From Closterium sp. NIES-65 (Eukaryota; Streptophyta; Zygnematophyceae; Desmidiales; Closteriaceae), in the NCBI GenBank assembly GCA_948144175.1, contig CANXME010002327.1, positions 2,062,501 through 2,126,500 of the forward strand: a DNA stretch of 64,000 bases, read 5' to 3'. Shown here one piece after another: positions 31,242 to 64,000 of this stretch (position 1 is its first letter; each line of letters starts with the position of its first letter). A program made the position numbers and the translations under genes. The notes under the pieces are model-generated. The model was not told the origin of the DNA, searched no databases, and saw only the letters and a program-made list of their open reading frames with translations.

Positions 31242-33529
31242 TCACCGCACCAGCCGTGTATAAGGACACGGCACATACTGCTGCACCTCGTCATCCCCGT
31301 CGCCCACGTCGGCCAGACTCACTTGGCCGATTGCGACGGAGCACCGGTTGAATGCCGGAAAATGCAGCGCCTTCGTCAGAAAATCCGCCGGCTGCTCGGA
31401 GGTCGGGATGTACTGCAGAGCAATTTTCCCGCGCTTCACAATCTGTTGCAGCCAGGCGTAGCGTCGCTCCATGTGCTTGAGGTTGCCCTTGAGCCCCAAG
31501 CCCTCTGCGAGAGTGATCACCGACTCGTTGTCCACGTGCATGTCGGGGTCGAGCTCGGGCAGATCGACGTCGTCCTCTGCATCGTCGAGCAGAGTAATGT
31601 AGGCCATCGGCGGCAGACAAGCGTAGTAGCTCAGCTTCTCAGGCGGCTTGCCGAAGTTGGAGCGGGTAGAATGGCGTGGTTTCTCCTTTTCGACCGCTAC
31701 CTCTACCACGTCGTCGTCTTCGGACTGCTCCCCTTCTCCGCCACCGGCCGCACCGACGACTTCCACAACGCCGTCGCTCGACGAATCGTCGTCAAACTGC
31801 TCCCCTGTCGGCAACTCCTCTACCGGTTGCTCCCCCGGGATCGCCTTCTCTGCCATCGGCTCCCCTAAATTTGGCGCCTCTACTGATGGCTCCTCTGCAG
31901 TCTGCTTCGGCGCCTCTGCCAGTAGCTTCTTTGCAGCCGGCTTCGACGCCGACCGCTCCCCTGTCGTCTGCAGCTTCCCGTCGCTGACCTTCTCAGCGTC
32001 ACGTCGGCCACCGGCGATGCAACCGGTCGGCGCCGCAGGCGACGCACCAAGTCTCCCCTCATCGCCGGCGGCCGACGAGGGCACAACGGGAGGAGGGAGC
32101 GAGACTTCCACGACGTCCTCATCATCATGCTCGTCAACGACGGCGGGCAGAGGAGGCAGCTCCAAGGAGGAATCCAACAGCGGGGCAGACGACGGCCGCC
32201 CTTGCTCTCTGGTGACACGCCGAGGTGGAGACCCCATCGAGCCTTTGGCGCCAGCTTCCCGCCCCGCTGCTGCTCGGGGACCATGAACTGCACCATGCAG
32301 CCCCAGACGCGCGCCGGCGTCAGATCCGGCTTTGTCTCGAAGAGCAGTTCGTGCGGCGTCGTCCCCTGCGGCAGAGAGGCCCGCTCGAAGCAGTTGCGCA
32401 CCCAGACAGCTTGGCGCAGAGCGAGGTACCACCAGTGATGCTTCACGCCCATGTGCAGAAGCATCGTACGCACGGCCTCGACCACCATACGCATCTCCCG
32501 CTCAGCCATCCTATTCTGCTGCGGAGTGTAGGGGCACGTCAGATTGTGGAGGATTCCCTTGTCCTCAACGAGGTCGGTGAAGGCGCGACCGAGGAACTCC
32601 CCTCCGCGGTCAGAACGCAGCTTCTTCACGGTCTTCGACGTCTACCACTCTACCTCCTTCAGCCACTTTTTGAGGACGACCAACACGTTGCTCTTCTTCG
32701 CGATCGGCCTCCCCCACACGTAGCGAGTCTTCCGATCTTTTAGCTAAAGAAAGTAGAAGCTGCCATCGTTGGCGGCTACTCAAAATGGCCCGCAGATATC
32801 GACGTGCACCACATCAAGAGCGTTCTCGGCGTCCGATCCTTGATCGGGGAAGGTGTGCCGTGCAAGTTTGCCGCCGACGCAGGAGGCACACGACATATCA
32901 TCTGCGGTCGACTTCGTGATGTCCAGACCGGCAGCGACCTCATGTTTCGCCGAGCTCTTTATCGTGTCGACGCCGACGTGCGCAAGCCGTGCGTGCATCA
33001 TGCCTGGGGTCAGCTTTGTCGCAGACGCGATCGTCCGCAGAGCCACAACCTCCATCAAAGTCATTGTAGACTTCGTCGAGCAGGGGCGCAGGCCGGTGCA
33101 GAGTACTCTGCCGGAGTAGCGTGCCCGACCAAGGACATCGCCGGCAGAAGACACCAGCAGCATCTCTCCGTCCTCGTCCTGTAGCTTCACGCCATTCTCC
33201 TTGAGCTGGCCAGCAGAAAGGAGGTTCGCGTGCACACCCGGAACGTAGAGTACGTCGGGGACGAGGACCTGCTTCCCGGCCTCCCCTTGCAGAGAAACGG
33301 TGCCTCTGCCTTCGACGCTCTTAAGTGCCCCGTTGAAGCCGCGAACGTGACGAACATCTCCGCTCGGCTGCATGTCGACGAAGGCCTCCTTCGCCCCCAT
33401 CAAATGGTGGGAGCAGCCGCTGTCGAGTAACACGACGGTCGGATTGGCCTGCACAGCAGCAGCGACCGCCTTGAAATCTTCGCCAGCCTCCAGCGCCAGC
33501 AAGATCGTCGGCTCTACCACGTTGACCAT
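31242..33529 (-). pseudogene. Copia-B polyprotein copy 1, RT deleted
   Basis: Read on the minus strand: protease VLLDSGCSHHLMG (about 33430), pre-integrase with MMHARLAHVG and CASCVGGKLARHTFP, integrase with HVDICGPF, LRSDRGGEFLG and QQNRMAEREMRMV, and an acidic linker. The frame then jumps from linker (DPDMH) directly to the end of RNase H (VDNESVITLAEGLGLKGNLKHMERR). The whole RT and most of RNase H are deleted in frame, leaving one frame 32432-31242. Stops: a TAG near 32641, where a Gln before TSKTVKKL is likely, is shared with copy 2. Confidence 0.85.
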
Positions 33530-36826: not shown

Positions 36827-37199
36827 TGTGAGTATCTGGGATCGAGCTCATAAAAGATTATTCAAATTGAATTGAATGATCACCTGGGTACAACACGAGG
36901 CTATATATAGGCTCGACACAAGGCCCCGTAACCAAGTGTTACGCGAAGGTTCCGCGGGTCGCGAAGCGTCCCGAACAGATCCTTACCGAATTCGGTAGAA
37001 GGCAATTCGGTGGCAACCAAAAAGCCAGAATTCGGTGCACGCAACCTAGCTCGGTGCTATAACTATAATAAAATATAGGAAAGCACCTAGCCTAGGAAAT
37101 CAAGCAATTCATGCATGCATATAATTATCCTATGCTAGAAATAGCATAATAAAGTAAAGGCAAGCAAGTATAGCTGGCATAAGCCGTCGTACTCTCACA
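36827..37199 (-). repeat. 5' LTR of gypsy2
   Basis: 373 bp, TGTGAG...CTCACA. Nearly identical to 41427-41799 and clearly related to the gypsy1 LTRs. Confidence 0.9.
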
Positions 37200-48086: not shown

Positions 48087-50634
48087 AGGCGTGCTGTTGG
48101 AGGTGGAGGGTCTTCGGCTGCTGAGGGTGCTGGTGCCGCGGGTCCCGGAGGTGCTCGTACTGGAGGTACTGGAGCTGCTGGGCCGGCGGGTGCGACCGGA
48201 GCTTGAGCTGCTGAGGGTGTTGGTGCTGAGGCTACTGCTGTCGGTCCTGGAGGCGGTGCTACTGTAGGTGCTACGGGTGCTGCTGGAGGTACTCGAGCTA
48301 GAGGTGCTGCTGGCGCTGGTGCGGCCGCTGGGGGTGCTGGTGCTGTCCCTGCTGTGTCTGGAGTCGCTGAGCGGCCTCGGCCATACTTCGTTCCGCTCCT
48401 TCAGCAGGTTCTTGGTCTACCGCCTTCTACTGGTCCTCCTCCTCCCTTAGAGTGTCTATAGCCTGTCCCGTCACAGTTACAGTTACCGCCGGCCTCCCCA
48501 CTGCCTGCTCCCTCTCCCTACACTGGTCCTATTGGAGGTCTTGCTGAGCGTCGTGAGCCTGCGTCTCGCCCTACGTCGCCCGTCCGTCCTGCTAGCACTA
48601 GTGGTCGCAGTTTGCGTCAGCATCTTCCTCCTATCCCTGGCATGCACCGGATGTCTCTGCGTCTGTCCACTGCTCCTCTGCGTGCCCCTTTGCCTTCTCC
48701 TCTTGAGTCCTCTCTTCCTGCTCTTGCTGACCCGGAGTCGGACTCTCTTCGTGCTGCCAGTCCTACTGTCACGCATCTCCTTGCTACTGTCGTCACTGAC
48801 CCTTCTTTTGAGTCCACTACTGCGTCTGCCCTCGTTGCTGAGCTCGTTGACTTTGCTGCTCGCTGTCGTCTAGACTACGCCGCTAGTCTTGTCGCTAAGT
48901 CTGAGTCTGTCTCTACTCCGTCTGTCGGGGGTGAGTGTGCGCTTGGCACGGACGTCCTTGAGGACAGGCAGGAGGAGTTCCTGTGTCTAGGTGCTGCTTC
49001 ACCTCATCTCGTGTCCGTACTGCTTACCTCTGAGGGAGACCCGGATGCACTAGACATCCCGACTCCGCGCTCTTACGCGGAGGCGATAGAGGGTCCCTAC
49101 TCTTCTCATTGGCAGGCAGCTATGGACGCAGAGATGGCTTCTTGGAAGTCCACAGGCACCTACGTTGACAACGTTCCCCCGCCAAGGGCGAACATCGTTA
49201 GTGGCATGTGGATTTTCAGGGTGAAGCGGCCGCCGGGTTCTCCGCCTGTCTTCAAGGCGCGTTACGTGGCTCATGGCTTCAGTGAGCGGTAGGGAGTTGA
49301 CTACTCTCAGACCTTCTCTCCCACCCCGAAGATGACCACTCTTCGGGTACTACTGCACATAGCTGCTCACCGTGACTACGAGCTTCACTCTCTTGACTTC
49401 AGCACAGCTTTCCTGAAGGGCAGCCTGCACGAGGAGATCTGGCTGCGCCGCCCACCTGGCTTCACTGGCTCTTTTCCTTCTGGCACCCAGTGGAGCCTCC
49501 GGCGGCCAGTCTACGGTCTCCGCCAGGCACCGCGTGAGTGGCACGACACACGGAGGACTACACTTGCGGCTCTTGGGTTTGCTCCCTCTACTGCCGACCC
49601 GTCGCTGTTTTTGCGCACCGATACTTCTTTGCCTCCGTTCTACATCCTCGTGTACATCGACGACTTGGTCTTAACCACAGCTGACACTACTGGACTCCCC
49701 ACGCAAAGTTCGAGCTGTAGAAGAGACACACGTGCACAGACCTGGGTGAACTGCGCAGCTACCTTGGCTTGCAGATCACCCAGGACAGAGCACGCCGCAC
49801 CATTACCCTGACTCAGTCACACATGGTGCAGCAGGTCCTTCAGCGCTTCGGCTTCACGTACTCCTCGCCTCAGGCCACTCCTCTGCCTACTCGCCACTCG
49901 CTCTCAACTCTGCCTTCGGATGAGTCCGTAGAGTCGAGTGGCCCGTACCCAGAGCTTGTTGGCTGCCTCATGTACCTCATGGCCTGCACATGACCTGACC
50001 TTGCATACCCTCTTAGCATTCTCGCACGCTATGTTGCTCCTGGGAGACACAGACCGGAGCACATGGCTGCAGCGAAGAGGGTGTTGCGCTACTTGTGCAG
50101 TACGTCGGGCATGGTCTTGTGCTTGGAGGGCAGAGTCCAGTGGTCCTCACTGGGCACGCAGACGCTTCTTGGGCTGACGATCAGGCTACGCAGCGGTCGC
50201 CACAGGGTTACACCTTCAGCCTTGGTTCCGGCTCTGTTTCGTGTCGGGCTACCCGCTCGTCTTCTGTTCTCGGCTCCAGTTGTGAGGCTGAGATCTACGC
50301 CGGGGCCATGGCTGCACAAGAGCTTCGCTGGCTCACCTACCTACTGACTGACCTTAGAGAGCCGCCTCGTTCTCCTCTCGTGTTGTACGTAGACAACAAG
50401 GCCATGCTGGCCTTGTGTCGAGAGCAGAGACTGGACCACAGAACGAAGTACATTGATCTCCGCTACTTCCTTGCTCGTGAGCTGCAGCAGCGTGGTCAGC
50501 TGCGTCTTGCGTACGTGGCCTCTGAGGCCAACACTGCTGATATCTTCACCAAGGCGCTTGCGCCTTGTGATCATCAGCGCTTCGGTACTCAGCTGGTTCT
50601 TGTGCCTGCCTTGCCTCACTTGCTCGCCTCTTGA
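48087..50634 (+). pseudogene. Copia A3 second linker, reverse transcriptase and RNase H
   Basis: The linker continues Gly/Ala-rich to about 48500. RT: AAMDAEMASWKSTG (49110), FKARYVAHGFSER then TAG 49290-49292 (A2: SQRQG), LDFSTAFLKGSLHEEIW, and a YIDD catalytic box at 49652-49663 instead of the usual YVDD. A one-base loss near 49700 and a TAG at 49718-49720 follow. RNase H: CTxPDLAYPL with TGA 49991-49993 in place of CGA, HADASWADD, CEAEIYAG, LYVDNKAM, ending LAS at 50634. Confidence 0.9.
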
Positions 50635-53738: not shown

Positions 53739-56700
53739 ATGATGACGGCGGAAAGCGGTGCGGGTCCTCCTCCTCCGCCGCCGCCCGCGCGCCGTCGCCG
53801 CCAGCAGGGCGTTTTGGAGCTTCTCCAGTGCGCGCTATTCGCGCCGAAAGGCCGTCCGCCGCCGCGCGGCGCGCCGAGCGGATCAACGTCCGCTCCGCAA
53901 GTTTCCCGCGAGGCAGAGCTCGGCCTAGCCGGCGCCGGCGCGGAGCCGATCTCCACGGCGGCGGGCGCATCTTCAACCTCCCCCGACGCGGAAGCCGCCT
54001 CGACTGATGGGAGCGGCGGAGAAGGCGGAAGCCGCCGCAGTGGCGACGTTGCGCCTGTGGCGGCGGAGGTCCTTCTCGCGGTGGGCGGAATGGCTTGCGC
54101 CGCGTGCGCCGCTTCCATCGAGAAGGCGCTTCTGCGCCTCGAAGGCGTGTCGAACGCGACGGTCTCCGTTATTAGCGAGCGCGCTAAAGTCACCTTCGAC
54201 AGCGCGTTGACGAATGTGAGTGCCACCCGTGCCGCCGCTGCCGCCACAGCCGCCGCCGCCGCTGCGCGACCTCGCGAGCGCACCGCTTTCAATGCTAACA
54301 ATACTTGCGTCCCTTTCAGCACTACCGCCAGAACACACATCATTACCGCTTTCAGACGCAACATATTCGCTTGAACCCGTACCATCCATCAGAGTCTATT
54401 ATGGTTATGGCCCGTCTCCGTTGTTCGTCTCATTCTAATAATTCTGTGTCGCGTCGCGCGCCTTGTGGCTGTAACAGGAGGACGAAGTAGCGAGCGCCGT
54501 CGAGGACGCGGGATTTGACGTCAGCATCATCTCCTGCACCATGCTCGCCGTGTCCGGCGGCGGCGGCGGCGGCGAAGGAGATGCGGGAGACGCCAGCAAC
54601 GCCACCGCGGGAGATGCGCACGCGGCAGCGGCGGCGGCGGCGGGAGGGCTACCCAAGTCGATGGGCGGAGCGCGCGCGATTCGCTTCCGCGTGCCGGCGT
54701 CGTCCGCGGATCCAGAAGAACGAGCAGCAGCAGCAGCAGTAGCAGCAACGGCGGGGATCGCCGCCATCAGCGGAGGAGATTCGATGGAGGAAACGCCGTT
54801 GGTGGTGGATCAAGCGACGCTGCTGGAGCGAGCGCTACAAGCGACCCCTGGTGTTCTGGCCGCGTCAGTGACTTGGAGTCGCGTGCCCGGCGGCGGTGGC
54901 GGTGGCGGCGGCGGCGGTGGCGACGGTGACTTGGAAGCGCACGTTGTGTACTCCGTCTCCCCTTCCCCCGCGCCCGCTTCCCCCGCTTCCGCCGCCGCCA
55001 CTTCCGCTCCCCCCGCGCCTCTCTCCCCAGCGGCGCTCCTCGCGGTTATCCACAAGGCGGGCTTCCCTTCCGCGAACCTTCTCTTCGATTCCCCCTCGAG
55101 TTCCGCCAATTCCGCCGGTTCCGCGGGTTCGCAGCACCAGCAGGTGCGCTTCCAACTTAAGGGGCTCGCGTCGGCCATAGCAGCCGGCACGTCCCAGTCC
55201 GGAACCGAAGCTACTAAACTCTCCGCGTCTGTCAAGGGCACTAGCAGCAGCGCTCCTTCCGCTTCTGTCAAAAGGACAGGCAGCTCTTTTTCCGCTTCTG
55301 GTAGGAGGAGAAAGGCTCCCTCCGCTCCGCCCTCCTCCCCCGCCGCCCTCTCCGCCTCCCCCTCCCCCTTCCTCTCCGCCGCCCCGTTCTCGCCCGCGCT
55401 CGCCGCCCTCCCGCTCCCCACCTTCATCGAAGCTTCCCTCTGCCTCCTCCCGGGCGTTTCCGCGGCAGCAGTCAGCACCCCCAGCCAGCACGTCACCGTC
55501 TCTTTCAACCCCGATATAAGCGGACCCAGGACTCTCCTAGAGGCTCTACAATCGGGGCTGGTCGAAACGAGACGGCTGGAGCAGGTAGACTTGGCGGATA
55601 GGGAAGGGGGAGGCGTGGGGGGGAGCGCGGGGTCGAGGCAGCGAAGGAAGGAGATAAGGAAGCTTCGGCAGCAGTTTATTTGGAGCTTGGTGTTTTCCGT
55701 GCCTGTGTTTCTGCTGGCCATGGTGCTGGATCGAATCCCGCCCTTTGACGAGTGGCTCATGTATCGAATCGTAAACTGGTGAGTTGGTTTCTGCGCGTGC
55801 GCATGTGTGTGTTGTGAGCGTGCGTTCGTGCCGGTGTTGATGCTGTGCGATGGTGCTGGTGCATGTGGGTTGTGAGTTCGATCCGTCCCGCCCCTGCCGT
55901 ACCTACCTATAGCTCAGTTGAAGGCCATGGTGCTGGATCAAATTCCGCCGTTCGACCACTGGCTCATATACCAAATTGTCAGCTCAGCGCCGCTCAGCCA
56001 ACATGGATGGACGTAGCCATTTTAGTTTTGAGACGCCTCAAAATTAAAGATGGACTTCGCTAACGTAGCCATTTTCTACTCCCTCTTCATCCTCCTCGCC
56101 TCTGCTCCCTTTCCTCTTTCCCCTCCCTCTCCCCTCTCCCTCTCCCTCTCCCCTCGCTCCTCCCTCTCTCCTCCCTGCCTCCCTTCTCTCCCCTCTCCCC
56201 GTTCTCCCCCACACCAGCCTGACAGTGGGAGTGCTGGCGCGGTGCATCCTCACCATCCCAGTGCAGTTCATCATCGGCTGGCGCTTCCACACGGGCGCCT
56301 TCAATTCCCCTTCCCTTTTCAACCCCTCTTTACGCCTTCCAACTCCTTTCAAATCCCTCTCCTCCCCTCTCGCAGCCTGACAGTGGGAGTGCTGGCGCGC
56401 TGCATCCTCACCATCCCCGTCCAGTTCATCATCGGCTGGCGCTTCCACACGGGCGCCTTTCACGCACTCAAGCGCCGCTCTGCCAACATGGACGTGCTCG
56501 TGTCCCTTGGCACCAACGCCGCCTTCTTCTACTCTTTCTTTATTCTCATCGCCTCGGCTGTCACCCCGCCTATGGAACTAGCTCCCCCCTCTGCTTCTCC
56601 TCCTGCTGCTCCTCCTGCTCTTCCTCCTCCAAATTCTGCTGGTGCTCCCGGCACGGGAACCAACTCATCGAGTCCTGCGAGTAAGATTGATTTTTCTGCT

Positions 56701-57053
56701 CTGGCTGGGTTTCAGGGCATGCCTGGTGCTGCTGGTAATGCTGGGGGCAGCAGCACAGCATATGGGACCAGAGGAGGAGGGGATTTTTCTGGGACGGTGG
56801 GTACGTGGGAGTGGATTGGGCGCATCAACAGCAGGAATGAGGGCCTCTCTGGACTCGGTTCTTCCAGTGCTGCTGCTGCTGCGGATGCGACTTCTGAGAC
56901 GTCTCAAAAGTGGATCACGCACGTGAACAGCAGGAGCCAGGGCCTGTCTGGCGCCGGTTCTTCCAATGCTGCTTTTCCAGGGTCGACTCAGAAATCGGCA
57001 ACGGTTCCGGTACAGGGGAGGATGGTTCAGGAGGTGGCAGCAGGAGGAGCGGC

Positions 57054-57102
<49 letters not shown>

Positions 57103-59121
57103 ACAGCGGCACCAGCTAAAACAGCACCGCCAGCACCCGCAGCAAATGCAACGGAAAGCCAAGGGGAGGGAGCAGGAGAAGCAGCGGGAGGAGGAGGAGG
57201 CGAAGGAGGCGAAGGAGGAGAGGAGGAGATGCCAGTTACAGTCACGTACGCATATGCTGGGATCGACTTCTTTGAAACGAGTGCGCTGCTGATCTCGTTC
57301 ATCATGTTGGGAAAGTACCTGGAAGCTGTGGCGAGAGGCAAGACGAGCGATGCCATAGGGAAGCTGCTGAAGCTGGCCCCTGATACTGCCACGCTGCTAG
57401 AGGTGGAGTATGGGGGGAAGGAGGGGGGAGAGGAGGGGGGAGAGGAGGGGGGAGATGAGGGAGGAGGAGAAAAGGGAGGGACGGGAATGGAGATTGGGGT
57501 TGAAAAGTGTGACAGTGGTGGTGGTGCTGCTATGGCTGCTGCTATGGCTGCTGCTGCTATGGTTGCTGGTGCTGGTAACCCTACCTGTGCTGTGGTTACC
57601 AGTGCTAGCAGCGGCAGCAATGGGTATGGTTGTATGAGTCCGGTCAGGGATGACAGTAGCTTCACACGTGGCAGTGCCATGCAGGAACATGACTACAGTT
57701 TCCAGTCGGATGACGTGGCGCTCTTTGATTCGACGCGCCAGGTCGGCTTCAGCTTCAAGTCTGACGTGGCGTCTGTTGATTCGTGCTTGGAGAAAGAGGT
57801 TATGATGACGTTGATGGCAGGCGATCGTGGGGGGGTGAGTGGGGAGGAGGAGGGGGGGAAAGAGACGGGAGAGGAGGCGAGGGGATTGATAGCTGGGAAG
57901 GAGAAGAGGGGGTATGAGTTGGGTAAGCAGGATGGGAATGCGGCAAAAGAGGAGAAAGAGGGAACGGAAGGGAAGGAGGGGAAGGAGGGGAAGGGCGGAG
58001 AGATGAGGGTGGTGGGGGAGAGGGAGATTGAGGCGGCGTTGATTCAGCGGGGAGACATCATTCGAGTGGTGCCGGGAGCCAAGATCCCCACGGATGGGGT
58101 TGTCGTGTGGGGGCAAACGTGAGTATGCTGCTTTGGGTATGCCGTGGTGCTTGGTGTTGTGCTGTCGTCGTGTGGGGGCAAACGTGAGTATGCTGCTTTG
58201 GGTATGCCGTGGTGCTTGGTGTTGTGCTGTCGTCGTGTGGGGGCAAACGTGAGTATGCTGCTTTGGGTATGCCGTGGTGCTTGGTGTTGTTCTGTCGTCG
58301 TGTGGGGGCAAACGTGAGTATGCTGCTTTGGGTATGCCGTGGTGCTTGGTGCTGTGCTGTCGTCGTGTGGGGGCAAACGTGAGTATGCTGCTTTGGGTAT
58401 GCCGTGGTGCTTGGTGTTGTGCTGTCGTCGTGTGGGGGCAAACGTGAGTATGCTGCTTTGGGTATGCCGTGGTGCTTGGTGTTGTGCTGTCGTCGTGTGG
58501 GGGCAAACGTGAGTATGCTGCTTTGGGTATGCCATGGTGCTTGGTGTTGTGCTGTCGTTGTGTGGGGGCAAACGTGAGTATGCTGCTTTGGGTATGCCGT
58601 GGTGCTTGGTGTTGTGCTGTCGTCGTGTGGGGGCAAACGTGAGTATGCTGCTTTGGGTATGCCGTGGTGCTTGGTGTTGTTCTGTCGTCGTGTGGGGGCA
58701 AACGTGAGTATGCTGCTTTGGGTATGCCGTGGTGCTTGGTGCTGTGCTGTCGTCGTGTGGGGGCAAACGTGAGTATGCTGCTTTGGGTATGCCGTGGTGC
58801 TTGGTGTTGTGCTGTCGTCGTGTGGGGGCAAACGTGAGTATGCTGCTTTGGGTATGCCGTGGTGCTTGGTGTTGTGCTGTCGTCGTGTGGGGGCAAACGT
58901 GAGTATGCTGCTTTGGGTATGCCGTGGTGCTTGGTGTTGTGCTGTCGTCGTGTGGGGGCAAACGTGAGTATGCTGCTTTGGGTATGCCGTGGTGCTTGGT
59001 GTTGTGCTGTCGTCGTGTGGGGGCAAACGTGAGTATATATATTCTGTGGCTTTCAAGTCCATTACAAGGATGGTATGAGGGAAGTGCGAGTCCTGAGACG
59101 TCTCAGAGTTTGTGTGAAGCC

Positions 59122-59164
<43 letters not shown>

Positions 59165-60129
59165 ACACACACACACCCACACACACGTGACGTGAGTGCG
59201 TTATCCTCACTTAGATATTCAGGCTCGGTAATTCCTCCCTTCCCTTATCCCTTCCCCTTCCCCTTCCCCTCCCCTGCAAACCCATCCTCCCGCTCCCTTC
59301 CCCCACCCCACCGCAGCTATGTGAACGAGAGCATGATAACGGGAGAGTCCCGCCCCGTGCTGAAGCAACTCGACTCCCCTGTGATAGGCGGCGCGCTCAA
59401 CCTCGCAGGGAGCATCCACGTGCAGGCCACCAGGGTGGGCGGGGACACGGCCCTAGCGCAGATAGTGCAGCTGGTGGAGGCGGCTCAGATGGCCAAGGCG
59501 CCCATTCAACGCGTGGCTGATCAGATATCAGCGATCTTCGTGCCCATGGTGAGTCACTGTGAGGGGGAAGGCTGGGAAAGCTGGGAAAGGCGCTGCCACA
59601 GGGAGGCAGATCGTGCAGCTGGTGGAAACGGCTCGGCTCAGATGGCCTAGGCGCCCATTCGGAGGGTCGCTGACAGCATATCGGCGATATTTTGTTCCCA
59701 CGGTGAGCGGCGGTGGTGGTGGTGCTGTGGAAGGGTGAGGAGGGTGGGAAGGGAGTGGGAGGCTGGGTGACTGACCCGCCAGTACAGAGGTCGCATTGCA
59801 ATAGTGCATGTGCGAAGGTATGCATCCTTTGTCGACAGGATATCAGCGAGCACGGTGTATTCGTGCGACTTTTGAGAATTCTCAAAGGATATCAGCGAGC
59901 ATGGTGAGTGGGTGCGTTTGGTGCTGTGCAGGGTGGTGTTGCTGTTGTAGGGTGGTGTTGCAGAGAGAGAGAGAAGAGCAGTGGTACCTTGGTGTATTTG
60001 TTTGTTTGTTTGTTTGTTTGTTTGTTTGCTTGTGTGTTTGGTTGTTGGCTCGCTTGACTGCTGGTTGATTGCTTAGACTAGCTTAGTGCCAATGACTGTA
60101 CCTTGATGCTATTAATACGAAGGACTGTT

Positions 60130-60168
<39 letters not shown>

Positions 60169-63100
60169 CTCAGACGTTGTCCCTCCCTCCCTTCCCTTAT
60201 TCTCCTTGCTTATCCTTCCTCTCACCCTCCCGCCCAAACCTCCCGTCCTCCCCAGCCCCCCTTCTCACCCTCTCACCCCTTTCCTCTCCTCCCCCCCTTC
60301 CACCTCCCCACCCCCTCCCCCAACCAGGTGGTGATAATCGCACTAGTCACCTTCACCATCTGGCTGATTATAGGGTACACCGGAGCGTTACCCTCGTCGT
60401 GGTTACCTCAGGGGATGACCTATTTCGAGCTGGCCCTCCAGTTCGGCATATCCGTACTCGTTATAGCGTGCCCCTGTGCGCTGGGACTCGCTACACCCAC
60501 TGCTGTGATGGTGGCGACAGGAATCGGCGCGCGGCAGGGCATTCTCATAAAAGGGGCTGATGCTTTGGAGAGGGCACATAAGGTGAGCAATGGGAAGGGT
60601 TCGCTGTTCTTGTCACGGGTATTGGTGGCTACAAGAATCGGCGCGCGCGGCAGGGCATTCTCATAAGAGGGGCTGATGCTTTGGAGAGGGCACACGAGGT
60701 GAGCGGAAATTAAGCTTGATGGGATAGGCATACCTTCTCATAGGCATACCTTCTCATAAGCATACCTTCCCATAGGCATACCTTCCCATAGGCATACCTT
60801 CCCATAGGCATACCTTCCCATAGGCATACCTTCCCATAGGCATACCTTCCCATAGGCATACCTTCCCATAGGCACATGGGAAGGGCTCAGCGTCCCTTCT
60901 TGTTCTCTCGTCTCCTCGTCTCGTCTCACCGTGTAATGCTGTAGCACCCCCTTCTCTTCAAGTGTTCCCCAAGTACTCTCAGATTGAAACGGCGGTGTTT
61001 GACAAGACACAGGCACTCTCACCTCACTCAAGGAAGGCCTATTGCCACCACCTGCACTCTCTTCTCCTTTCAACCTTTGCTCCCTGCCCGCCCTTGTATC
61101 ATTTCTCTACCTGTGTCTGTGTGTGTGCTCTCAGATCGAGACAGTGGTGTTTGACAAGACAGGCACTCTCACTCAAGGAAGGCCCAGCGTCACTTCCTGC
61201 ACTCTCTTCTCCTCCCGGGTCTCGCAGTCAGAGCTGCTTGCTATCCTGGCTGCTGCTGAGGTAGGCATACGCACAGACAAGCACGCACACCATGCGTGCA
61301 TGCACACAGGCAAGCACACATATCTCACACAGGCATGTACGCATGCACACCATGCAGGCATGCACACCATGCAGGCATGCACACCATGCACACCATGCAC
61401 ACCATGCATGCATGCGCACCATGCACACCATGCACGCATGCACACCATGCACACCATGCACGCACTCGTCTCGCAGTTGGAGTTCCATGCTATCCTGGCT
61501 GCTGCTGAAGTATGGACAGACATGTCTGGGAGATGTTGAGAGGTTATGAACTGAGTACAACGGGAAAGGGAGTGGGGGAAACAGGGTGTGGGTAAGGGAG
61601 TGAGGGGGAAGGGGATGGGCAGGCCGATAGTCACCTCTCACCTCGTGCTCCCTTTTTGAGAATTCTCAAAAACCTTCTCCCCATCGCTGTTTGTAGCACC
61701 TTGAGTCGTAATCGAGGTGACCTTTGAGTCGACTCAAAAGGCAGTTGGAGCACCTTGAGTCATAATCGAAGGGCCGCAGTAGGCGTGAGGGAGTGGGGGA
61801 AAGGGGATGGGCAGGCCGATAGTCATCCCTCACCCCATGCCCCCCGTCGCAGTTGGAGCTTCTAGCTATCCAAGCCGCTACTGATGTATGGAGGCCAGCA
61901 GACACATGCACACACAGAAACATCCCCCGACGCCCTGCAAACACCCGCAACCCTCCTCATCCCCTTCCTAGTCCCCCATTTCCGCCCCCTTTCCCCCTGT
62001 TGCAGGTTAGCAGCGAGCATCCTTTAGCCAAGGCAATAGTGGACTATTGCCTCTCCTCCCCGCACATGCCCAGGACCTTTCCCCCATGCTCAAGAGTTTC
62101 ACTCACTCTCCCTCTTCCTCTCCCTCATCCTCTCGCTCCCGCCCCCTTTCCCCATTACAGGTTAGCAGCGAGCATCCTTTAGCCAAGGCAATAGTGGACT
62201 ACTGCCTCTCCTCCCCGCACATGCCCAGGACCTTCCCCAACCTCTCCCACATTCCCTTCCCCTCCTCCTCCCCACCCTCTTCCTCGCCACCTTCCTCCTC
62301 TCCCAAATCTCTTCGTGCTCTCCCCTTCTCCTTCCCCCTCCCCTCCTCCACCTCACCTCTCCCCCACTCCCCAGCTCTTCTCCCGTCTCCCTCACCCCTC
62401 CACCGCTACTCTCCCTCCCCATTGTCCTCCCTCCATCCTTCCCCCCATCATTCAACATCCCCCCCATCCTCTAACTCATCTCTTCACTCCACGCCCAATC
62501 ACCCTACCACCGCCACCACCGGCGACATTTCTTCCCAAGACACCTCTCCTTCCAAGAAGCTTCTGCACACTCTCCCTCCTGCCGAGAGCTTCGAGGCAAT
62601 AGCGGGGCACGGCGTGGTGTGCCGAATCAATGGGCGCCACGTGGCAGTGGGGAATCTGAAGCTCATGCGGACCAGGACCGTTGTCATGTGCAATGCACCG
62701 GCGCCGATCGCAGAAGGGGAGAACAACAGCAGCAGATCACAGGAGGAGATTACAGGCACTGTCACTGATGCTGCTGATGCCACCGCTACTGCCAACAGCA
62801 GCACCGTCAACAGCAGCAGCAACGCCACCACAGACCCCTCCCTCCCTCCTCTCCCTCGCGGCGTCCTCGAATGGCTGGCAGAAACCGAAGCAGGCGCCGA
62901 AACCGACGTGCTCATAGCCCTCGACGGCCACGTGATAGGCGGCGTGTCTGTCTCCGATCCTGTCAAGCCGGAAGCAGCAGCCGTGGTGGGGATCCTTCAG
63001 TCCATGGGCATGCGCACGGTCATGGTTACAGGAGACAACTGGGGATCCGGCAGGGCTGTGGGGCGAGCGGTGGGGATAGAGGGAGACGATGTGGTTGCAG

Positions 63101-63558
63101 AGGCTTTACCCGCGGATAAAGCCGCATTTGTGAGGAAGGTGCAGGGGGAGGGGAAGCAGGTGGCAATGGTGGGAGACGGGGTGAATGATTCGCCTGCGCT
63201 GGTAGCTGCTGATGTCGGGATTGCGATTGGTGCGGGGACGGATATTGCTATAGAGGCGGCGGATATTGTCCTCATGCGCTCGTGTCTCGAAGACGTCGCG
63301 ACAGCCATTGATCTCGCGCGGACCGCGCTTCGACGGATCAGATTGAACTACGTCTGGGCGTTCGGGTATAACATCACAGGTATCCCCATCGCGGCGGGGG
63401 TACTCTTCCCAACCGCCCTCCGGTTCCGCCTCCCCCCGTGGGTGGCTGGGGCTGCAATGGCTCTATCCTCAGTGAGTGTGGTGTGCTCGTCTCTGCTGCT
63501 ACGACTCTACAGGAGGCCCAGGAAGCTGGACCTGATCAAGCTGGAGGTGCAGCAGTAG
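53739..63558 (+). CDS. Copper-transporting P1B-type ATPase (HMA5/HMA7-like), seven exons
   Basis: Exons: 53739-54215, 54478-55778, 56376-58118, 59317-59548, 60328-60582, 61135-61260, 62161-63558. All introns are GT-AG and the phases agree, giving 1843 residues. It pumps Cu+ across a membrane using ATP; plant relatives load the secretory pathway or export copper. Seen: metal-binding GMACAAC (residues 117-123), two HMA-like folds without CxxC (about 265-340 and 470-515), TM1 about 557-580, TGES (1182-1185), CPC (1299-1301), DKTGT (from 1343), SEHP (1381-1384), TGDN (1668-1671), GDGVND (1716-1721). Then YVWAFGYN and MALSSVSVV, both typical of Cu+ pumps. It is nearly twice the usual 950-1000 residues because of low-complexity inserts of about 220 residues before TM3 and about 210 in the actuator domain, plus one of about 115 in the nucleotide-binding domain. 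The start is the first in-frame ATG; an ATG three bases on is equally possible. Confidence 0.93.
54216..54477 (+). other. Intron 1 of the ATPase gene
   Basis: 262 bp, GTGAGT...AACAG, phase 0. No exon echo seen. This is the only intron without one. Confidence 0.85.
55779..56375 (+). other. Intron 2, carrying copies of exon 2 and exon 3 ends
   Basis: 55924-55981 resembles the last 60 bases of exon 2 (GGCCATGGTGCTGGATC, GTGGCTCAT equivalents). It runs straight into 55983-56012, which resembles the middle of exon 3 (GCGCCGCTC-GCCAACATGGA), and 56046-56100 resembles the next part. 56218-56302 copies the first 85 bases of exon 3 (56376-56460) with about five changes, including the preceding AG. 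Confidence 0.88.
57052..57110 (+). repeat. (GCA)n microsatellite coding poly-alanine
   Basis: Lies in exon 3 and codes for about 20 Ala residues in the insert before TM3. Confidence 0.9.
58119..59034 (+). repeat. 65-bp tandem array at the start of intron 3
   Basis: Donor-containing units repeat with an exact 65-bp period (GTGAGT at 58119, 58184, 58249 and so on to 59029: fourteen intervals). Each unit ends with GTCGTGTGGGGGCAAAC, which is also the last 17 nt of exon 3 (58102-58118), followed by GTGAGTATGCTG. Units differ by only one to three substitutions. Because 65 is not a multiple of 3, the minus strand happens to be open in long frames with a Pro/Thr/His-rich repeat. I do not call those genes. 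Confidence 0.97.
59126..59187. repeat. (CA)n microsatellite in intron 3
   Basis: Nearly pure CA/AC repeats with a few CCCA interruptions. Confidence 0.95.
59549..60327 (+). other. Intron 4, with three partial copies of the exon 4 end
   Basis: 59606-59709 matches the last 96 bases of exon 4 plus donor (GCAGAT-GTGCAGCTGGTGG, GATGGCC, GCGCCCATTC, then GGTGAG). 59838-59861 and 59884-59908 repeat the last piece (GATATCAGCGAGCA-GGTG). Also holds (TTTG)n at 59997-60027 and (GA)n at 60131-60168. Confidence 0.9.
60583..61134 (+). other. Intron 5, with copies of exon 5 end and exon 6 start
   Basis: 60618-60704 repeats the exon 5 end and donor (GGCAGGGCATTCTCATAA, GGGGCTGATGCTTTGGAGAG, then GGTGAGC). 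60983-61040 repeats the exon 6 start with its CTCTCAG acceptor (GTGTTTGACAAGACA), but with three and two extra bases. 60722-60873 is a 16-bp minisatellite (CCTTCCCATAGGCATA, about ten units). Confidence 0.9.
61261..62160 (+). other. Intron 6, with copies of exon 6 end and exon 7 start
   Basis: 61475-61516 and 61851-61890 repeat the exon 6 end (CTCGCAGT-GAG, GCTATCC, GCTGCT). 62006-62085 repeats the first 80 bases of exon 7 with its acceptor, offset 155 bp, and with one substitution in the first 60 bases. 61290-61460 is a run of CACACCATGCA-type repeats. Confidence 0.9.
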
Positions 63559-64000
63559 GGGTGACTGAGATGCTCATTTGACCCCTACTGGAGGAGAATT
63601 CCCCTACGGGTGGGTTGCTGCTGGTGCAGCAATGGCCCTATCCTCTGAGTGTGGTGTGCTCCTCTCTGCTGCTACGCCTCTACAGGAGGCCCAGGAAACT
63701 TGACCTGATAAAGCTGGAGGTGCAGCAGTAGGAATTGGAGCTGTTGCTTTCATCTCCAATGCGGAAAAGAGGGGGAGTTTGGGGGTTTCCTATTATTCAC
63801 CTAACGAGTCAGACTGTAAAGGAGGCCAAGCGAACTTGACCTGAGCAAGCTGGGTGTGGAGCATTGGTTGGGAGGAGTGGTGTGTGATAACCTCTAGCAG
63901 GGAAAGTAGGGAGAGGCAGGGGAGGGGAGGGGAGGAAGGGGGTGTAGAAGGGGGGTTGGAAGCATCCAGGGGGTGTTGTTGTTGGCTATACAGGAAGCCA
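63559..64000 (+). other. 3' flank with copies of the last exon
   Basis: 63609-63731 repeats the last 115 bases of the coding sequence, through the same CAGCAGTAG. 63814-63860 is a weaker copy of the last 45 bases. The window ends in CTATACAGGAAGCCA (63986-64000), the start of what looks like another copy. No polyadenylation signal is certain. Confidence 0.88.

Follow-up and report, generated by a model that had tools for sequence, protein, structure and literature searches.

In rice, insertions stem most often from tandem duplications, and these are enriched at 50-200 bp, the tandem share of insertions dropping beyond 125 bp, as reported in PMC7971508, where they are attributed to patch repair of adjacent nicks (citing Vaughn and Bennetzen 2014 and Schiml et al. 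2016); the account in PMC8355091 has small tandem duplications arising also through Pol alpha-primase fill-in at breaks. The present work compares these and other described systems with a set of partial exon copies found in a 64,000-nucleotide stretch of DNA from Closterium sp. NIES-65 (contig CANXME010002327.1; hereafter the window), the final ~10 kb of which is a single gene on the forward strand (53739..63558) with seven exons, coding for a P1B copper ATPase. The introns and 3' flank of this gene contain copies of the edges of neighbouring exons, which resemble small tandem duplications in being local direct repeats with a scale of 50-200 bp, in being recurrent, and in having counterparts within an exon and within an intron. 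They are unlike such duplications in that most border copies lack an alignable flank, have unrelated spacers and differ from the exon mainly at silent positions. Unlike the rice duplications, moreover, most border copies are offset by 114-249 nt, the rice tandem share falling beyond 125 bp.

The gain of introns by tandem duplication of exonic sequence is the subject of Zhuo 2007 and Lehmann 2010, both in the reference list of PMC3488318. The likeness to the Closterium gene is that its introns hold copies of neighbouring exons together with splice signals. An intron gained in this manner would carry the start of the next exon first and the end of the previous exon last. The order in introns 2, 5 and 6 is the reverse, the end copy preceding the start copy, and this model was rejected. 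Tandemly duplicated (mutually exclusive) exons offer a further parallel, given that the copies lie beside the original and show coding-like divergence; here, unlike in that system, a copy covers only part of an exon and has a single splice site, several copies are frameshifted and frames are often broken, and the copies do not qualify as mutually exclusive exons. Exchange or gene conversion, finally, occurs between homeologous or allelic gene copies. The silent-biased differences, the unalignable introns and the mosaic of versions seen at the locus are like its products, and the silent bias is indeed what exchange with a diverged gene copy is expected to leave; what is unlike them is that a single gene has undergone numerous small events, border after border, by insertion rather than replacement, with no donor seen. 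A literature search, with most subscription journals outside its scope, returned no report of exon-edge copies in introns.

Copies at the exon borders and their divergence

The copies (Table 1) follow a simple order: those of exon ends sit downstream of their own exon and those of exon starts upstream of theirs, always as direct repeats on the same strand, 114-625 nt from the source, as is the case for small tandem duplications. They were recovered by tandem-repeat search, self-BLAST, pairwise alignment and a filtered exon-to-intron search. In the last of these, a BLAST of exons against introns and 3' flank (E <= 1e-3, low-complexity filter on), 13 matches were obtained against a mean of 0.0 in 50 dinucleotide-shuffled intron sets, the 65-bp array in intron 3 not being among them. 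The exon-edge copies listed in the first-pass annotation are confirmed in this way, with the exception of the two shortest (59838 and 59884), which fall under the BLAST threshold used and are visible by eye; its remark that intron 1 is free of copies also holds, there being no match in that intron in the filtered BLAST.

The sources of 10 of the 13 matches reach within 10 nt of an exon border. The remaining three lie off the borders, in the interior of exon 3 (copies 55986-56007 and 56062-56106) and in the middle of exon 6 (copy 60879-60917). These three are additions to the first-pass annotation, as are the duplication inside exon 3 and the one confined to intron 6. When duplications are placed at random, 17% fall across one border, 46% within exons and 37% in introns or flank, and the number of affected borders, 9 out of 13, is slightly above the 6.7-8.4 expected from 9-13 random events. 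Exon-internal duplications would be mostly harmful, and, as a matter of geometry, a local duplication can place an exon copy in an intron without disrupting the exon only by spanning a border. The idea that borders are copied systematically is thus only partly borne out: sources do cluster at borders and similarity tends to stop there, and against this stand the three off-border sources, one duplication inside an exon and one confined to an intron. Border targeting is not proved, the sharp ends of similarity making it a possibility. The accompanying statement that no described process would do this was too strong, since 50-200 bp tandem duplications are common in rice and the crossing of a border follows from geometry.

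At six of the eight borders tested, similarity between exon and copy ends at the splice consensus or the stop codon. Intron flank is alike beyond the splice consensus at the start of exon 7 (2 of 1000 shuffles reaching the observed likeness) and marginally at the end of exon 4 (50/1000). Flank likeness was not detected at the ends of exon 2 (123/1000), exon 5 (172/1000), exon 6 (653/1000) and exon 7 (429/1000), nor at the starts of exon 3 (216/1000) and exon 6 (755/1000), the power of the test, simulated for four flanks, being 0.96-1.0 at 20% divergence and 0.17-0.78 at 40%. The tail of the exon 3 start copy is nearer to the tails of three other introns (scores of 41, 30 and 28) than to that of its own partner (24). 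Between the two non-coding copies of the exon 7 end, 50 nt of exon part agree at 80% but the flanks are not alike (116/1000). The clear exception is the 65-bp array in intron 3, in which each unit includes the exon end and donor. In other words, head-to-tail repetition of a whole unit including flank is seen in the array and at the start of exon 7, and marginally at the end of exon 4.

The differences between exon and copy are biased towards silent positions. Across nine copies 46 of 73 substitutions are silent, compared with ~21 expected when they are placed at random (sum of means) and with 32.1 if the exon side also may change silently (P 0.0008); for all eleven copies the figures are 55 of 93 against 40.5 (P 0.0016). 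In three copies every substitution is silent (silent/non-silent 8/0 for the exon 7 end, 3/0 for the exon 3 start and 2/0 for the exon 7 start). Codon counting over 215 codons gives a pooled synonymous divergence (Ks) of 0.335 and non-synonymous divergence (Ka) of 0.058, and hence a Ka/Ks of 0.17, with bootstrap 95% ranges of 0.10-0.28 over codons and 0.09-0.26 over copies. The yardstick is a Ka/Ks of ~0.5 for a copy dead from birth, and 0 of 5000 replicates reach 0.5 in either bootstrap; the pooled copies do not show the decay blind to codon position that is expected of duplications made by patch repair. (The alignments of the exon 6 and exon 7 start copies used for these counts begin at 60984 and 62007, one base late, at the cost of a single base each and of no substitution count.) The exon 5 end copy, having two silent and three non-silent substitutions and one 2-nt indel, is compatible with neutral decay; on its own, the second copy of the exon 7 end is likewise compatible with decay blind to codon position. 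As a control, third positions are not favoured in the in-frame duplication inside exon 3 (4, 5 and 5 differences at the three positions). The Ks between copy and exon ranges from 0.12 to 1.30, which indicates copies of several ages or sources and upholds the earlier view that they arose repeatedly; equally sound was the observation that many copies keep their GT or AG signal, for example the GTGAGC which follows the exon 4 and exon 5 copies.

The copies are real and inherited. The closest proteins to that of the gene are from Closterium, namely a partial protein of NIES-54 (84% identity over 97% of the query, on a 12-kb contig) and a protein of Naga37s-1 (74% identity across 100% of the query, on a 1-Mb contig). 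The NIES-54 gene model begins within the exon 3 interior copy and then reads a 33-residue stretch twice, the spacer between the two reads matching the intron spacer of the window (PLFTPSNSF; 0/1000 shuffles). That of Naga37s-1 has a 20-residue exon 7 start copy, a spacer and then the true exon 7 start, with 13 residues of the spacer also encoded in intron 6 of the window (0/1000 shuffles), and it has another short copy of 11 residues. Since the same copies and spacers recur in these independent records, an assembly error confined to the window contig, which had been named as a refutation, is unlikely. A second, more distant Closterium copy of the gene (the older paralogue) is present in the protein listing of NIES-68, NIES-64, NIES-65, NIES-54 and Yama58-4, and in its Yama58-4 version (P0011) the end of the last exon is doubled, residues 1927-1990 and 1995-2058 being 98-100% identical (longer matches). 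No such C-terminal repeat was found in the paralogue proteins P0008, P0009, P0010 and P0012 by self-comparison in a 50-residue window, although absence from proteins means little, since copies that are spliced out are invisible there. The suggestion that this is a genome-wide habit of the lineage is hinted at by the three other strains and one paralogue. A practical warning follows: the predicted NIES-54 and Naga37s-1 proteins contain such copies as protein, and the Yama58-4 one has a doubled C-terminal end.

Proposed exchange between gene versions and competing readings

The explanation favoured from these sequence comparisons, to which we give a probability of about 0.5, is that recurrent local duplication went together with sequence exchange, or overwriting, among diverged gene versions. 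Borders of the gene's own exons would have been duplicated locally and repeatedly, the copies coming to lie a short way past exon ends and a short way ahead of exon starts. The copies of the ends of exons 2, 4 and 7 and of exon 3 would have diverged from the exon inside a working protein-coding version, and would have been pasted in, or later overwritten, through exchange out of register, or template switching, with a second and diverged gene version (an allele, a homeologue or a duplicate). The locus would then be a mosaic in which exon parts are alike with mainly silent changes and intron parts were already unalignable. Border copies would survive because splicing removes them, and exon-internal copies would be tolerated if in frame and in dispensable loops, as in exon 3. 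The sequences themselves show that the copies are present, in what order they lie, that other strains share them, that silent sites are favoured and that similarity is limited to the borders; the donor version, the exchange step and this selection filter are what we infer. The exon 5 end copy can be read as its own exon simply duplicated and then decaying neutrally. Random local tandem duplication explains the array as well as the repeats internal to exon 3 and confined to intron 6; it probably accounts for the exon 7 start copy too, and perhaps for the exon 4 end copy.

In favour of exchange between gene versions is the combination of silent bias, border-limited similarity, residues of other strains in the copies and richness in gene copies. 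The last codon of the exon 4 copy is ACG (T), as in the exons of NIES-54 and Naga37s-1, the exon of the window having ATG (M), and 11 residues of the exon 3 interior copy read as the NIES-54 exon does, unlike the window's own exon. As to gene copies, PMC10407611, in which a section heading names hybridisation, reports duplication of over half of the ortholog groups in two strains of the species complex, NIES-65 and NIES-4550, although the samples were haploid. Several points weigh against this reading. The residues shared with other strains in the exon 4 and exon 3 copies could be retained ancestral states, and, at a site where NIES-54 and Naga37s-1 differ, the copies of exon 5 (ARQG) and of the exon 7 start (MPRTF) each have the residue of their own lineage. 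The silent excess weakens when the exon 7 end copy is left out (38/65 against 28.6, P 0.013), and the 0.5 yardstick presumes that mutation rates are the same and that changes in the exon are silent only. The copies compared among themselves are also biased to third positions (11/19), which keeps a mutational bias possible, although the exon 3 internal duplication shows none. No donor sequence for the copies was seen, the Closterium DNA compared being that of the window only. The older paralogue (P0008-P0012) was rejected as the donor by eye, the exon 2 and exon 7 end copies reading like the gene of the window and unlike the paralogue.

Ordinary small tandem duplication at random, by nick or break repair and followed by neutral decay, with exon-internal cases purged and exon-derived ones recognisable longest, was the initial favourite and is now held to be rather unlikely as the general explanation. 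The 65-bp array, the duplications internal to exon 3 and confined to intron 6, the alignable intron tail at the exon 7 start (and, marginally, at the exon 4 end), the closeness of the affected borders to random expectation, and the dominance of such events among 50-200 bp insertions in rice as reported in PMC7971508 all speak for it. What lowered it were the flank tests and Ka/Ks: the pooled ratio is 0.17, not ~0.5, the flanks are unalignable at six borders, and the two exon 7 end copies share their exon part and not their flank. For the remaining copies, random tandem duplication explains neither the limitation of similarity to coding sequence plus splice consensus nor the silent bias, a pattern that a comparison of two working gene versions would give. 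Copying directed at exon borders as such, for instance by template switching or by nicking tied to splicing or R-loops, would account for the 10 sources ending within 10 nt of a border, for the stop of similarity at 6 of 8 borders and for the doubled exon end of the Yama58-4 paralogue; newly made border copies would nevertheless decay neutrally, contrary to the Ka/Ks found, and the three off-border matches and the exon-internal and intron-only duplications lie away from any border, such that this process is improbable. The reinsertion of splicing intermediates, also proposed in the first-pass annotation, is disfavoured for the exon 4 and exon 5 copies, as these keep an unspliced donor.

Two diverged gene versions zipped into one contig by the assembly would be expected to look much like this locus, with silent-only differences in exons and unalignable introns. 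The presence of the same copies and spacers in the NIES-54 and Naga37s-1 records (0/1000 shuffles for each spacer) and the frameshifts or a stop in several copies leave such an artefact very unlikely. It is similarly hard to credit that the copies are functional, as alternative or decoy splice borders under selection, in spite of their low Ka/Ks, their retained splice signals, the nested GT..AG stretches in introns 5 and 6 and the in-frame inclusion of copies in proteins predicted for two strains: each copy covers only part of an exon, those of exons 4 and 5, of the exon 6 start and of the exon 7 end have frame-breaking indels, and a reading frame continued past the exon 3 or exon 7 start copy goes out of phase (offsets of 158 and 155 nt).

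A bolder version, for which the same sequence features leave only a small chance, is a lineage-wide, border-limited recombination which would paste exon edges with their splice consensus from a diverged version beside the matching edge, and would thereby build nested exon-intron-exon blocks within introns (introns 5 and 6), perhaps aided by palindromes of the form TTTGAG-NNNN-CTCAAA found at some of the duplicate junctions. Were exchange between gene versions to be the correct explanation, introns would record exchanges in a haploid lineage with many duplicated genes, and intron growth, splice-site doubling and gene-copy exchange would be datable from sequence.

Gene structure, palindromes and minor features

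The seven exons join into one open frame up to the stop, with GT-AG at all six introns, and the part encoded by exons 4-7 scores 480.7 bits against TIGR01511 (cut-off 397), as a copper P1B-ATPase does, and 508.9 bits against TIGR01525 (cut-off 346.25). In a further protein search no Closterium protein was among the 120 matches listed of 7807. The identity figures of Table 1 refer to aligned bases, exon source against copy.

Table 1. Exons, copies, other duplications and palindromes of the copper ATPase gene, in positions of the window
Feature	Source	Position	Strand	Remarks
Exon 1		53739-54215	+	joined open frame
Exon 2		54478-55778	+	joined open frame
Exon 3		56376-58118	+	joined open frame
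Exon 4		59317-59548	+	joined open frame
Exon 5		60328-60582	+	joined open frame
Exon 6		61135-61260	+	joined open frame
Exon 7		62161-63558	+	joined open frame, stop
Copy of exon 2 end	55716-55777	55923-55984	+	81% identity, no indel; Ks 0.75, Ka 0.139
Decayed copy of exon 3 interior		55986-56117	+	broken up by a palindrome; intact version in NIES-54 protein
Copy of exon 3 start with acceptor AG	56376-56459	56218-56301	+	96%; 3/3 substitutions silent; shared with NIES-54
65-bp array, unit spanning exon 3 end and donor		58102-59036	+	14.4 units, 98% matches
Copy of exon 4 end, then GTGAGC	59458-59548	59606-59702	+	87%; 8/12 substitutions silent; five indels
Two short exon 4 end copies flanking a palindrome		59838..59905	+	visible by eye (near 59838 and 59884)
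Copy of exon 5 end, then GTGAGC	60509-60582	60623-60698	+	93%; 2/5 substitutions silent; one 2-nt indel
Intron-like piece nested in intron 5		60699..60982	+	GTGAGC start, CTCTCAG end; between exon 5 and exon 6 copies
Copy of exon 6 start with acceptor AG	61135-61213	60983-61068	+	87%; 6/10 silent; indels
Copy of exon 6 end	61219-61260	61468-61509	+	86%
Second copy of exon 6 end	61219-61260	61844-61885	+	78%
Copy of exon 7 start with acceptor AG, alignable intron tail	62161-62238	62006-62083	+	97%; 2/2 silent; shared with Naga37s-1
Copy of exon 7 end as far as stop codon	63445-63558	63620-63731	+	93%; 8/8 silent; one 2-nt indel
Second, decayed copy of exon 7 end	63503-63554	63812-63863	+	79%; 4/11 silent
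Intron-only duplication in intron 6		61592-61652 and 61785-61844	+	87%
In-frame duplication inside exon 3, spacing 99 nt		56810-56874 and 56909-56973	+	self-BLAST
Palindrome TTTGAG-NNNN-CTCAAA		56027-56042		seen in sequence
Palindrome TTTGAG-NNNN-CTCAAA, one mismatch, in exon 3		56893-56908		seen in sequence
Related palindrome CTGAGACGTCTCAG		59093-59106		seen in sequence
Palindrome TTTGAG-NNNN-CTCAAA		59871-59886		seen in sequence
Palindrome TTTGAG-NNNN-CTCAAA		61655 (within 61653-61672)		seen in sequence
Palindrome TTTGAG-NNNN-CTCAAA		61723-61738		seen in sequence

In intron 2 the copy of the exon 2 end and that of the exon 3 interior abut, the first 91 nt of exon 3 being missing there, and in intron 6 the segment directly after the second exon 6 end copy, 61886-62005, has GT..AG ends and is nested in the manner of the intron-like piece of intron 5. 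Each unit of the 65-bp array has a GTGAGT donor, giving many identical donors in series after exon 3. At 63977-64000 there is a candidate for a fourth, weak copy of the exon 7 end (score 21), cut by the end of the window.

The palindromes of the gene form a family, TTTGAG-NNNN-CTCAAA, with mostly palindromic centres (ACGC, ACGT, AATT twice and TCGA). The rest of the window has no such sequence at up to one mismatch, its three two-mismatch sites not being palindromic. On a fixed list, two of the six palindromes lie within 2 nt of the edge of a duplicate (P 0.037) and three of the six within 5 nt (P 0.021); further adjacencies were noticed only post hoc and are outside these P values. One palindrome stands immediately before the second copy of the exon 3 internal duplication, a place at which the NIES-54 and Naga37s-1 proteins vary in length and retain an ET residue pair.

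Elsewhere in the window, identical palindromes occur at 33098/39911 and 33584/40397 (offset 6813 in both cases) and at 36984/41584 (4600), as if larger repeats were present there. The Yama58-4 paralogue model P0011 is fused to an upstream unrelated reading frame. Upstream of the copper ATPase gene, the window has a reading frame at 50017-50634, the translation of which we take to resemble the RNase H end of a Copia-type retrotransposon.

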